In this document: positions 53,422-56,696 of the stretch, in pieces
Layout: every line of letters starts with the position of its first letter
Position numbering within the stretch: position 1 is the stretch's first letter
NCBI GenBank assembly: GCA_018262575.1
Contig: JAGSYU010000013.1
Span: 1 to 56,696, forward strand
From: Pseudomonadota bacterium
Lineage (GTDB): Bacteria > Pseudomonadota > Alphaproteobacteria > Rhizobiales > Pleomorphomonadaceae
Length of the DNA: 56,696 nt
Direction: 5' to 3'
Position numbers and translations under genes: made by a program
Notes under the pieces: generated by a model
What the model saw: the letters and a program-made list of their open reading frames with translations, nothing else
What the model was told of the DNA's origin: nothing
Databases searched by the model: none

Positions 53422-53700
53422 TCAGGCAGCAACGGCCTCGGCGGCCTTCTTGGCGATCTGCTTCTTGATCAGCCGGGCACGCGGCGACAGCTCGTCGTCG
53501 CCAGCCTTGGCGAGATAGGCATCAAGGCCGCCACGATGCTCGACCGAACGCAGAGCGTTGGCGCAAATGCGCAGGCGCACCGACTGGCCGAGCGTATCGG
53601 ACAGGAGCGTCACAGCCAGGAGATTCGGCAGGAAGCGCCGCTTGGTCCTGTTGTTGGCGTGGCTGGCGCCGCTTGCGTCTTGCCGACGGCGCCGTTTCAA
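53422..53700 (-). CDS. rpmB: 50S ribosomal protein L28, N-terminus atypical
   Basis: From [15 protein letters not shown] to the end this 92-residue protein is a standard alphaproteobacterial L28 ([42 protein letters not shown]). The usual first 20 or so residues, of the form M-x-RRC-x-LTGK, are not there: the frame reads [12 protein letters not shown] before SHANN, with an in-frame TAG three codons before the only possible start, a TTG at 53700. AGGAACGCGAC precedes that TTG. L28 is normally present and important for growth, so a local sequence error or small rearrangement in the first 50 bases seems more likely than a functional variant. Confidence 0.88.
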
Positions 53701-54022
53701 GTCGCGTTCCTATAGTCGGTCGGCATCGGCCCCGTCAACCCCGGAAGCGAGCGGAAGCAGGCAAAAATGCCGCCGGGCCGGGCGAAAGCGACGGCTGGAC
53801 GCCTGCCGCATTTCACAGCACTGGAACATCCAGGCTTTCGCGACGTTAACCATCCGGTTACCATGACAGTCGATCATCCGACGCAGGGCGATCGGCCGAC
53901 CGGCCGCCGTTCTTCCATCGGCGGGCCCATTGCCCGCCGGGATGATCTTCCATACGTCGTTCCGGTCGCCGATGGCGGTCGAGGGTGAGGACGGTTCGCC
54001 GTCCGCAAACGGAGGTTCCGTG
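53701..54022. promoter_or_regulatory. Divergent region between rpmB and the DUF3108 gene
   Basis: No gene is visible in these 322 bases. GTTAACCAT at 53845-53853 contains the CtrA-like half-site TTAACCAT, and a related GGTTACCAT follows at 53856-53864. GGAGG at 54011-54015 serves the DUF3108 gene. Confidence 0.45.
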
Positions 54023-54868
54023 GTGGTTCGTGTCGAAACTCTCCCGCGTCGCTTGAAAGGCGCCATGGCCGCGGCGGTCTTCGTTGCCGCGCTGTCCGCC
54101 GTGCCGCCGCCCGGCGCGGCCGCGGCGCGCGAGGGCGAAGTCCAGGCTCTGTATGCCGCATCCTTCATGGGTATTGGCATCGCCAAGGGGTCGCTGTCGA
54201 TCAAGGTGGAGCGCGGCGCCTACGCCGCCAAGCTGCACATCTCCACGGCTGGTCTCGCCCGCATCGTCAGTTCGGAAGAGAGCTATATCGACGCCAAGGG
54301 CTACGTTGGCCGCTCGCTGGTGCCGTCCACCTACGAGTTGATGAGTCGCGGCGACACGGTAACGCAGGTGTCGATGTCGCTCGGTGGCGGCAACGTCCGC
54401 AGCCTCAGGGCCATTCCCGAGCTCATTGAACGCGAAGACCGCGTGCCGGTGACGGCGACGGCCAAGCGCCGCGTGATCGATCCACTGTCGGCGGCGATCC
54501 TGCCGATGACCCGCGACGACAAGGACGTTTGTGACCGCACCCTGCCGGTGTTCGACGGCTGGACGCGCTACGACATTCAACTCAGCTACACCAGTACCGA
54601 TCCGGTCGATGTTCCCGGTTACAAGGGCGATGCCGTCCACTGCTCGGCGCGCTGGGTGCCAGTGGCCGGCCATCGCGAGGGCACCAAATCCACCGAGTAC
54701 ATGCGCGACAACCGCGACCTCGACGTCTGGTTCGTGCCGATGGCCGAGGGGCGGGTGATGGTGCCGAGCAAGATCTCGGTCAAGACCATGCGCGGCTTGT
54801 TACTGGTGGTGGCAACCCAGTTCGGCGACAATGCCAAGCTCGGCAAGGTGGAGCAGGCGGCCAACTGA
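54023..54868 (+). CDS. DUF3108 domain protein, exported
   Basis: This protein of about 281 residues has a signal peptide (AMAAAVFVAALSAVPPPGAAAA) and a DUF3108 domain: ALYAASFMGIGIAKGSLSIKVE, STAGLARIVSSEESYIDAKGYV and VWFVPMAEGRVMVPSKISVKT. It is periplasmic; the function is unknown. Start choice: GTG 54023 lies 7 bases after GGAGG, with GTG 54020 and ATG 53972 possible. The gene pairs with rpmB and the helicase in the usual order for the group. Confidence 0.82.
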   Translation: MVRVETLPRRLKGAMAAAVFVAALSAVPPPGAAAAREGEVQALYAASFMGIGIAKGSLSIKVERGAYAAKLHISTAGLARIVSSEESYIDAKGYVGRSLVPSTYELMSRGDTVTQVSMSLGGGNVRSLRAIPELIEREDRVPVTATAKRRVIDPLSAAILPMTRDDKDVCDRTLPVFDGWTRYDIQLSYTSTDPVDVPGYKGDAVHCSARWVPVAGHREGTKSTEYMRDNRDLDVWFVPMAEGRVMVPSKISVKTMRGLLLVVATQFGDNAKLGKVEQAAN

Positions 54869-54913: not shown

Positions 54914-55472
54914 GTTGTCGGCGGGTGGCGCTTCCATTGTCCTTTGTGCCGATCCAGGACAGAAGTGTTAACGCTTCGGTGACCGACGCAGGCCATAAGG
55001 GCGGCGAGGCGACGACATCTTGTGCGTCGGGCAGCCAAGTCGGGTACATGTGGGCGGAGCAAAACGAGAACATCGGTCTGTCAGCGATTCGGCCCGCCTT
55101 CGTTCTTGCTTCGTTGAAATGGTTAACGCGTGTGCCGCTCTACTTTCTCGCTCGAGTATAATTGGTTAACCATGATTTTCATTTGGAGTCTTGGTGACGA
55201 TCTGATCTTGACATCGATTCTTGCCCCGAATCGATCGACTCGTCCTTTGGAGTCTCCGGATTCAAGATAGCGCAGCGAAGACTCTCCGGCCCTCCATATC
55301 TTGTGGAGAACGAATGCGGAATCTCTTTGAAATTGCGATTCGTCCCGCATCCGTTCCCGTTTGATTCCTTTTGGCCGCCGCCGCCATGCTTCCGCCGGTT
55401 TTTTCTGGCCTCTCGGCCGGACTTTCGTATAGGGAAAGTCACGGCCCTCATCGCGCAACCGAACGGGACCCT
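54914..55472. promoter_or_regulatory. Large intergenic region with GANTC cluster and CtrA-like motifs
   Basis: These 559 bases hold no credible gene. Ten GANTC sites (the CcrM methylation target) lie in 55196-55367, at 55196, 55216, 55228, 55237, 55250, 55259, 55280, 55319, 55337 and 55363, and one more at 55086. GTTAAC occurs at 54967, 55122 and 55165; the last two sit in ATGGTTAA (55119-55126) and TTAACCAT (55166-55173). Base composition is more AT-rich than the flanks around 55140-55200. It may be a cell-cycle-regulated promoter for the helicase or a replication-linked site. Confidence 0.6.
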
Positions 55473-56696
55473 ATGAATATCGTCCGAGAGGCCCCTCTGT
55501 CCTCGCTCGCCCGTGCCCGGGCGGTGACGGCGGTGCTGGGGCCGACCAATACCGGCAAGACCCACCTCGCCATCGAGAAGATGCTGAGCCACGGCTCCGG
55601 TGCCATCGGCTTGCCGCTGCGCCTGTTGGCGCGCGAGGTCTACGGCCGGGTCGTTGCCCGTGTTGGCGCGGGCGCGGTGGCGCTCGTCACCGGCGAAGAA
55701 AAGATCGTGCCGCGCAGCGCCCGCTATTGGGTGGCGACGGTGGAGGCGATGCCGCGCGACCTTGACGTCGCCTTCGTGGCCATCGACGAGGTGCAACTGG
55801 CCGGTGACATCGAGCGCGGCCACGTGTTCACGGACCGCCTGCTCAACGTGCGTGGCCGGCAGGAGACCATGCTGCTCGGCGCGGCGACGGCGCGCCCCCT
55901 GATCGAACGGTTGTTGCCGGGGGTCGTCGTCACCACGCGGCCGCGCCTCAGCCACCTCGCCTATACCGGTGCGAAGAAGATTACCCGCCTGCCGCCGCGT
56001 TCGGCCATCGTCGCCTTCTCCGGCGACGAGGTCTATGCCGTCGCCGAGTTGATCCGCCGCCAGCGCGGCGGCGCGGCGGTGGTGATGGGCGCGCTTTCCC
56101 CGCGCACCCGCAATGCGCAGGTGGCGCTGTTCCAGAATGGCGACGTCGACTTCCTGGTGGCGACCGACGCCATCGGCATGGGCCTCAATCTCGACGTCGA
56201 CCACGTCGCCTTCGCACAGGCGCGCAAGTTCGATGGCTACCAGTATCGCGGCCTGACGGCTGCCGAACTCGGTCAGATCGCCGGTCGGGCCGGCCGTTAT
56301 CTCAACGATGGCACCTTCGGCGTGACCGGCCGGGTGATGCCCCTTGATGACGACATCGTCACGGCCATCGAGGGGCATGACTTCGAGCCGGTGGGCGTCT
56401 TCCAATGGCGCAACGGCGACCTCGATTTTTCGTCGGTCGACGCGCTCCGGGCCTCGCTCGAGCAGTTGCCGGGCATCGAGGGGCTGACGCGGGCACTGCC
56501 ATCCGACGACCAGCGGGCACTCGACTTCGCTCTTCGGGCCGAGGATGTGGCAGCGGCGGCGCGCGGCCGCGAACGGGTGGCGCTGCTGTGGGATGTCTGC
56601 CAAGTTCCCGACTTCCGCAAGATATCGCCGGCCCAGCACGGTGATCTCATCGTCGCACTCTATCGATTCCTCATTGCAAAAGGCGTGATTCCAGAC
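55473..56696 (+). CDS. SUV3-like superfamily 2 helicase, 3' end cut by window
   Basis: The visible 408 residues run to the window edge without a stop. It is a DEAD/H-like superfamily 2 helicase of the mitochondrial SUV3-related type found in Alphaproteobacteria. Walker A GPTNTGKT is at residues 24-31, DEVQ in VAFVAIDEVQLAGDIERGH, motif III GAATARPLIERLLPG, then SPRTRNAQVALFQNGDVDFLVATDAIGMGLNLDVDHVAF and motif VI GQIAGRAGRY. It probably remodels RNA, perhaps with RNA degradation enzymes. ATG 55473 has only a weak upstream GGGA. The gene follows the GANTC-rich region. Confidence 0.9.
   Translation, partial: MNIVREAPLSSLARARAVTAVLGPTNTGKTHLAIEKMLSHGSGAIGLPLRLLAREVYGRVVARVGAGAVALVTGEEKIVPRSARYWVATVEAMPRDLDVAFVAIDEVQLAGDIERGHVFTDRLLNVRGRQETMLLGAATARPLIERLLPGVVVTTRPRLSHLAYTGAKKITRLPPRSAIVAFSGDEVYAVAELIRRQRGGAAVVMGALSPRTRNAQVALFQNGDVDFLVATDAIGMGLNLDVDHVAFAQARKFDGYQYRGLTAAELGQIAGRAGRYLNDGTFGVTGRVMPLDDDIVTAIEGHDFEPVGVFQWRNGDLDFSSVDALRASLEQLPGIEGLTRALPSDDQRALDFALRAEDVAAAARGRERVALLWDVCQVPDFRKISPAQHGDLIVALYRFLIAKGVIPD

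Follow-up and report, generated by a model that had tools for sequence, protein, structure and literature searches.

Why should the gap in front of a helicase gene hold ten GANTC sites within 182 bases, and what might such a cluster do? The question is raised by contig JAGSYU010000013.1 of assembly GCA_018262575.1, a Pseudomonadota bacterium of the family Pleomorphomonadaceae (Alphaproteobacteria, Rhizobiales), which we analyzed over a stretch of 56,696 nucleotides, hereafter the window. CcrM methylation, which takes place at GANTC, is a central cell-cycle mark in Alphaproteobacteria, and an earlier note on this DNA had read the cluster as a cell-cycle-governed promoter, a methylation-sensitive switch, or a replication or segregation site. 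Sequence comparison indicates that the GANTC array overlies an older element of about 90 bp common to many Alphaproteobacteria, two tandem copies of which lie in the window. Our tentative preference, held at somewhat less than an even chance, is that the locus is a control site gated by CcrM/GcrA methylation, with a partner protein bound to the arms of this old element. The principal features are as follows, R1 being a sequence-only profile built from 63 copies of the element, both window copies included, so that its matches take in its own source genomes.

55186 to 55367, no strand: GANTC array of ten sites, the last three within core copy 2 (sequence count, selective conservation)
55046 to 55129, + strand: core element copy 1, centre CGATTCG at 55085 to 55091 (R1 profile, 3.8e-15; repeat D1 with copy 2)
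55086 to 55090, no strand: central GANTC site of core copy 1, kept in 17/18 other family loci
55292 to 55376, + strand: core element copy 2, with GAACGAA arm, centre CGATTCG at 55336 to 55342, and GTTC arm (R1 profile, 6.9e-15; alignment A2)
55473 to 56696, + strand: Suv3-type DEXQ-box helicase, N-terminal 408 amino acids, continuing beyond the window (PF22527, 5.7e-25; PF00271, 1.4e-11)

The ten sites start at 55186, 55216, 55228, 55237, 55250, 55259, 55280, 55319, 55337, and 55363. The earlier note had placed all ten at 55196 to 55367; the count is right for the 182 bases from 55186 to 55367, but the narrower interval loses the first site, at 55186, and holds nine. The window contains 83 GANTC sites in total, and the 73 outside the array correspond to 0.235 per 182 bases, a rate at which ten or more sites have a Poisson probability of 1e-13; elsewhere no stretch of that length holds more than three. 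Local composition by itself would give 0.69 sites per 182 bases, and when the 592-base intergenic region was shuffled 2000 times by dinucleotides, its densest 182 bases held 2.6 sites on average and never more than 8. A complete chromosome from the same genus (5.48 Mb), sampled as 14 stretches of 20 kb (280 kb, 5.1% of its length), carries 1.33 sites per kb and at most 4 in any 182 bases; a comparable background of 0.90 to 1.83 per kb, about twofold higher between genes, is given for Ensifer in part of PMC8725594. Against each of the sampled backgrounds, be it the rest of the window, the shuffles, or the 280 kb from the same genus, the cluster stands out as far denser. Somewhat lower local GC is all that speaks for chance or composition as its source, and the density together with the selective conservation described below already refutes that explanation, leaving it a vanishingly small probability.

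The array is also maintained in relatives, and neither outcome that the earlier note had set as refuting its reading was observed: a density inside the genomic spread for intergenic regions, as far as the sampled backgrounds show, or a lack of conservation among close relatives. Across 19 aligned family loci, identity to the window is 95.8% in the GA.TC columns of the ten sites, versus 64.5% in the other columns of the same stretch; omitting L014, a locus with fewer sites, raises the first figure to 97.5% (18 loci), and the same comparison over 13 same-genus loci gives 99.4% versus 72.5%. Single array sites are retained in 14 to 18 of the 18 other family loci. Changes at the N position that preserve the site do occur (e.g., GAATC to GAGTC at 55228), but N is mostly conserved too, so selection seems to act on more than CcrM recognition. 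A dense array, defined as at least seven GANTC sites in 182 bases, is present in 19/19 family loci and in 9/38 other loci of the order; counted by locus set, it occurs in 24/30 loci of the first set and in 4/27 further loci of the order; one locus counted here, L081, is only 652 bases long.

Beneath the array, and reaching past it on both sides (55046 to 55376), lie the two core copies that the earlier note had missed. Alignment of the upstream regions brought the core to light, and its variation was followed in 163 nonredundant examples, gathered from the collected loci by a pattern demanding GATTCG and degenerate arms. It is built as GAACRAA at -29, GAA at -18, YGATTCG at 0, C at +8, TTYGTTC at +13 to +19, and a weaker GTTC at +27; the arm spacing is constant at 45 bp, and 68/163 cores have TTAA near +38. 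Extra GANTC sites within these cores fall at -18, -8, +11, and +22, roughly one helical turn apart.

A small RNA gene or structured leader before the helicase would account for a single-sequence fold z score of -2.36 and for the stems that GANTC pairs can form in the family alignment, whose consensus energy is -23.4 kcal/mol, while column shuffles average -1.0 (0/60 as low). Those stems arise from the conserved array itself, however, because GANTC is self-complementary, and the covariation term of the family array is near zero (0.19 kcal/mol). Rfam matches at the gathering score were limited to a distant tRNA (tRNA-Leu); RNAalifold found no pair in the 63-copy core alignment; and at the variable R/Y position of the arms GAACRAA and TTYGTTC the Watson-Crick pairing fraction among the 163 cores equals expectation (0.72 observed, 0.71 expected), with no covariation. 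An RNA element is rejected for the core on these three grounds of Rfam, fold, and covariation, and for the region as a whole we regard it as very improbable. Since the arms show no RNA covariation, the element looks, as judged from the alignments, like two inverted protein-binding sites on double-stranded DNA and not like a hairpin.

Which protein might occupy the arms? LexA suggests itself, as the right arm has the spacing and sequence of the alphaproteobacterial LexA box (GTTC-N7-GTTC) in about half of the cores (perfect in 77/163), and the element could be an SOS operator with LexA on the right arm, and on the left, its overlap with GANTC being incidental. The left arm misfits, with GAAC-N7-GAAC in only 10/163 cores, and on this count LexA is rejected as a full explanation; the window region itself is without a perfect GTTC-N7-GTTC. 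Such an operator would also leave unexplained why the YGATTCG centre is constant, why the arms stand at a fixed 45-bp spacing, and why some copies, described below, lie in gaps between convergent genes, and we judge it quite unlikely.

The centre of the core points toward CcrM and GcrA. GATTCG is constant in 63/63 aligned copies, although the seed pattern had left the N of GANTC open, and the base before it is a pyrimidine in 163/163 nonredundant cores (C in 121, T in 42), where the gathering pattern had required GATTCG but not Y. In Caulobacter, GcrA activation is tied to methylated TGATTCG, given more broadly as YGAKTCK and elsewhere as YGAKTCG in the portions of PMC7987155 that treat the motif. 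The YGATTCG centre fits this extended GcrA motif at the level of its letters. GcrA is encoded in 33/33 core-positive genomes of a class-level sample, versus 187/289 overall, and CcrM (E ≤ 1e-60) in 32/33, versus 210/289 overall; the one exception, G229, is a 92% complete assembly in 320 contigs. The window's own genome encodes both CcrM (N6_N4_Mtase plus RAMA) and GcrA (1.3e-54). A separate observation is that GcrA matches in core-positive genomes are mostly high scoring and unbroken, while in many negative genomes the match is split in two; a tie of the element to one form of GcrA may lie behind this, or it may be phylogeny.

The distribution of the element ties it mostly to one gene. The SUV3-like helicase named in the earlier note is confirmed by Pfam as a Suv3-type DEXQ helicase starting at 55473, and a match to it is found in 59/60 relatives. 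At E ≤ 1e-3, R1 gave 96 matches in 47/60 of these relatives, of which 83, in 45 genomes, precede the helicase on its own strand by no more than 1.2 kb; at that place 35 of the 45 carry at least two copies, and 33/38 spacings between copies are 201 to 261 bp. In the class sample, 33/289 genomes were positive at the same threshold, all but two with a single copy, the weakest (G341) being possibly a chance match; these many-genome searches used stricter filters, under which weak matches are lost. A fixed-spacing pattern scan of named genomes recovered at least 118 stretches, and among the matches listed, 64 of the 80 examined have the helicase downstream, 64/64 on the strand of the element. The remaining 16, again among the matches listed, comprise eight with no more than 400 bases of sequence downstream and eight with about 800 or more and other neighbors. 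Neighboring genes were assigned by simple open reading frame choice and verified only where named by Pfam. A phage origin was considered and set aside, the core pattern having no match in viral contigs when searched as the exact pattern.

Two side observations concern a few genomes. Brevundimonas aveniformis and a related-looking metagenome-assembled genome (L194, L187, L300) carry the core about 300 to 500 bp upstream of a small Hpt-like gene, named by eye; a further copy in B. aveniformis (L309) precedes the helicase by about 1 kb. In a pair of related class-level genomes (L046, L049), TTATCCACA, a DnaA-box-like motif, lies about 60 to 70 bp before the core, upstream of the helicase.

Xanthobacter departs from the single-locus pattern: at E ≤ 0.1, dispersed copies number 11 in one species and 12 in another, several of them in matching places, including three tandem pairs per genome about 100 to 300 bp apart (loci L167, L228, L307, L308, L314-L317, L321-L328). 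Such dispersal recalls the long Caulobacter intergenic repeats (CIR) that Chen and Shapiro reportedly described in 2003, in which a CcrM site is said to be central in an inverted repeat and up to 21 copies to occur per genome. As far as that description goes, the likeness lies in the length, the intergenic position, and a CcrM site central to an inverted repeat, and our element could belong to such CcrM-associated repeat families, perhaps with little function of its own. What sets it apart is that in most positive genomes one to three copies occupy a single locus, which across many families is usually next to the same gene; conservation beside one gene across families is not that of a drifting repeat, and we give membership in such a family only a slim chance.

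Chromosomal position bears on the replication or segregation site raised in the earlier note. Sites resembling parS were found in 29/29 genomes searched, on the same contig as the element in 22, and in all 22 the two are 11 kb or more apart. The element is not itself parS: its sequence is unrelated to the GTTTCACGTGAAAC-type palindrome, it is much longer, and it contains a CcrM site, although it shares with parS an origin-proximal position. In the 20 genomes other than Xanthobacter, the nearest copy lies 12 to about 600 kb from parS (one distance, in G322, measured across contig ends with a rounded length), and by rounded chromosome sizes 19/20 fall within about 0.36 of half a chromosome, the other, G102, being at about 0.65. 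In both Xanthobacter species five copies lie no farther than about 75 kb from parS, and the pair closest to it adjoins rho and an Nfu-type gene. In the complete relative G012, coarse sampling at 14 positions puts the sign change of the GC skew somewhere from 411 to 782 kb, with parS at 609 kb; skew switch and parS are about 180 to 550 kb from the element, which is at 960 kb. The element is therefore not the replication origin in G012, the complete relative checked, and this part of the earlier proposal is rejected there.

A related possibility is the strongest rival to promoter control: that the element is a site for chromosome organization or replication control acting without transcription, in a role like that of parS, datA, or SeqA-bound clusters, its neighbor gene being an accident of gene order. 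The nearness of one copy to parS in most genomes measured, the Xanthobacter copies around it, and the dispersal in that genus all favor this, as do copies placed away from the helicase. Of these there are 13 among the 96 R1 matches in relatives, 11 in genomes where the helicase was found elsewhere and two in G009, where none was found; L132 is such a copy, and G045 has three copies beside a DUF3108 gene with the helicase, and a copy of its own, on another contig. Against a free chromosomal site stands the finding that most copies lie upstream of one gene in one orientation (64/64 above), which would not be expected of it. Origin proximity may only mirror the conserved position of the helicase, and conserved gene order could explain it; extra copies can be far from parS, at about 1.95 Mb in G053 and 725 kb in G037. 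We consider this explanation unlikely, though it deserves to be taken seriously.

The DNA at and between the two cores carries promoter-like and CtrA-like sequences, listed here together with the gene upstream.

55208 to 55213, + strand: TTGACA, a -35-like hexamer ending two bases short of the GATTC at 55216 (alignment A3, 17 loci)
55157 to 55162, + strand: TATAAT hexamer just before the CtrA-like site (consensus resemblance only)
55164 to 55173, + strand: GGTTAACCAT, containing TTAACCAT (55166 to 55173), a CtrA-like half-site
55123 to 55127, + strand: TTAAC half-site, CtrA-like (inverted pair I5)
53930 to 54868, + strand: DUF3108 gene upstream, start uncertain (PF11306)

TTGACA is found between the two core copies in 18/19 family loci, and in the 17 loci of A3 the GATTC, GAATC, and GACTC sites come right after it, apart from two losses. 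GcrA is reported to act at promoters with methylation sites in the spacer and -10 region, and from its sequence the TTGACA region looks like such a promoter, with methylation sites in both places. The CtrA motif is a TTAA-N7-TTAA pair, and we take TTAACCAT and TTAAC to be CtrA-like half-sites, recognized by eye; the CtrA-like motifs that the earlier note had seen near the cluster are present as two half-sites, of which TTAACCAT is kept in 11/13 same-genus and 12/19 family loci. Separately, we observed a G+C-rich inverted repeat with T runs at 55397 to 55430, between core copy 2 and the helicase start, that is terminator-like on the + strand (55404 to 55421) and might end a short upstream transcript. 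Farther upstream, the ribosomal L28 gene beside the cluster (53422 to 53720) seems not to have its usual N terminus in frame, the Pfam match beginning at profile position 17, which is likely a frameshift or assembly error.

On the favored reading, CcrM would methylate the GANTC sites of the array, and GcrA with sigma-70 RNA polymerase would read the YGATTCG centres in their methylated state, while an arm-binding protein may occupy the flanks, the right one having LexA-type GTTC-N7-GTTC spacing. Because the element lies mostly in the origin half of the chromosome, we propose that it would be hemimethylated early in replication and remain so until CcrM acts late; a dense array could sharpen this switch. 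The likely outcome would be that expression of the helicase operon, or of a short RNA upstream of it, is timed to the cell cycle. Seen in the sequence itself are the two tandem cores with their fixed spacing and, between them in this family, TTGACA, the CtrA-like half-sites, and the conserved GANTC array; in favor of the reading count the selective conservation of the GANTC sites and of TTGACA, the spread of the element, its GcrA-type centre, its co-occurrence with CcrM and GcrA, the lack of covariation between the arms, and the usual place and strand ahead of the helicase. Of the earlier proposals, a cell-cycle-type methylation site is the best reading, given the GcrA-type centre, the co-occurrence with CcrM and GcrA, and TTGACA, whereas the replication origin is unsupported, on the evidence of G012.

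A number of points weigh against this reading. At E ≤ 1e-3 the core escaped detection in 13/60 relatives and in 256/289 class genomes, including 178/210 that carry CcrM, and the association of the element with CcrM and GcrA is confounded, being inflated by relatedness. The dense array is not general, since of 62 loci from the class-wide search only L032, from the same order, has one. Promoter control of the helicase leaves unexplained both the copies without the helicase and those in gaps between convergent genes: G102 has the element, CcrM, and GcrA without a helicase match; in L163 the core stands beside the L28 (rpmB) gene without the helicase; three copies in G037 lie between converging ribonuclease T2 and transketolase/E1-type genes; and one copy in G229 lies between convergent reading frames, a convergent placement that also describes the loci L131 and L273. 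(G102, L163, L131, and L273 also count in favor of the chromosome site.) A consensus scan of the + strand found no good -10 at 16 to 18 bases from TTGACA, and the exact arm spacing would seem to exceed what GcrA apparently needs. Finally, GcrA in B. subvibrioides gave no extended motif, as given in part of PMC7987155, and the word helicase is absent from the main text of that paper.

Several described systems come close to the element. The GcrA/CcrM sigma-70 promoters of Caulobacter and Brevundimonas share with it the YGATTCG centre, the presence of CcrM and GcrA in the genome, and, in the family, TTGACA beside GANTC. Unlike those promoters, the present locus has a ten-site array and two tandem, rigid GAAC/GTTC composites of about 90 bp, is kept across orders mostly at one locus, and has copies also in convergent gaps; its GcrA dependence is putative. 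The Agrobacterium repABC-Ch2/ori2 module likewise gathers several GANTC sites in one alphaproteobacterial control region, with nine motifs and hemimethylation proposed as a switch (PMC11514494, in part), but that is a secondary replication origin, whereas our array is far denser and not at the origin in G012. The LexA boxes differ in the misfit of the left arm, the central YGATTCG, and the fixed inter-arm spacing, and the CIR repeats differ, by that description, in that our element is usually at one locus, kept by position. SeqA binds hemimethylated GATC clusters, as at oriC of Escherichia coli; like these, the element combines dense methylation sites at about helical-turn spacing with a place in the origin half, but the methylase is different and the element is not at the origin in G012. 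Among the top-ranked matches in the open-access literature, none describes an element of this kind ahead of the helicase.

A broader reading is compatible with action with or without GcrA. The element could be a conserved methylation-sensing nucleoprotein site, an origin-half, usually duplicated 90-bp unit with a CcrM-marked centre that is bound in a methylation-dependent manner, coupling fork passage to chromosome or cell-cycle events as an alphaproteobacterial counterpart of SeqA- or datA-type control. We rate this as rather unlikely. If true, the role of the dense array in Hyphomicrobiales would be to make the signal stronger.

The GcrA regulon is reported, in part of PMC7987155, to be largely rewired even between related genera. 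A site kept for so long, mostly at a single locus and with a GcrA-type centre, would give one test object for how methylation state is read in these bacteria. We know of no SeqA-like function in Alphaproteobacteria, and it is possibly such a function that this element would represent.
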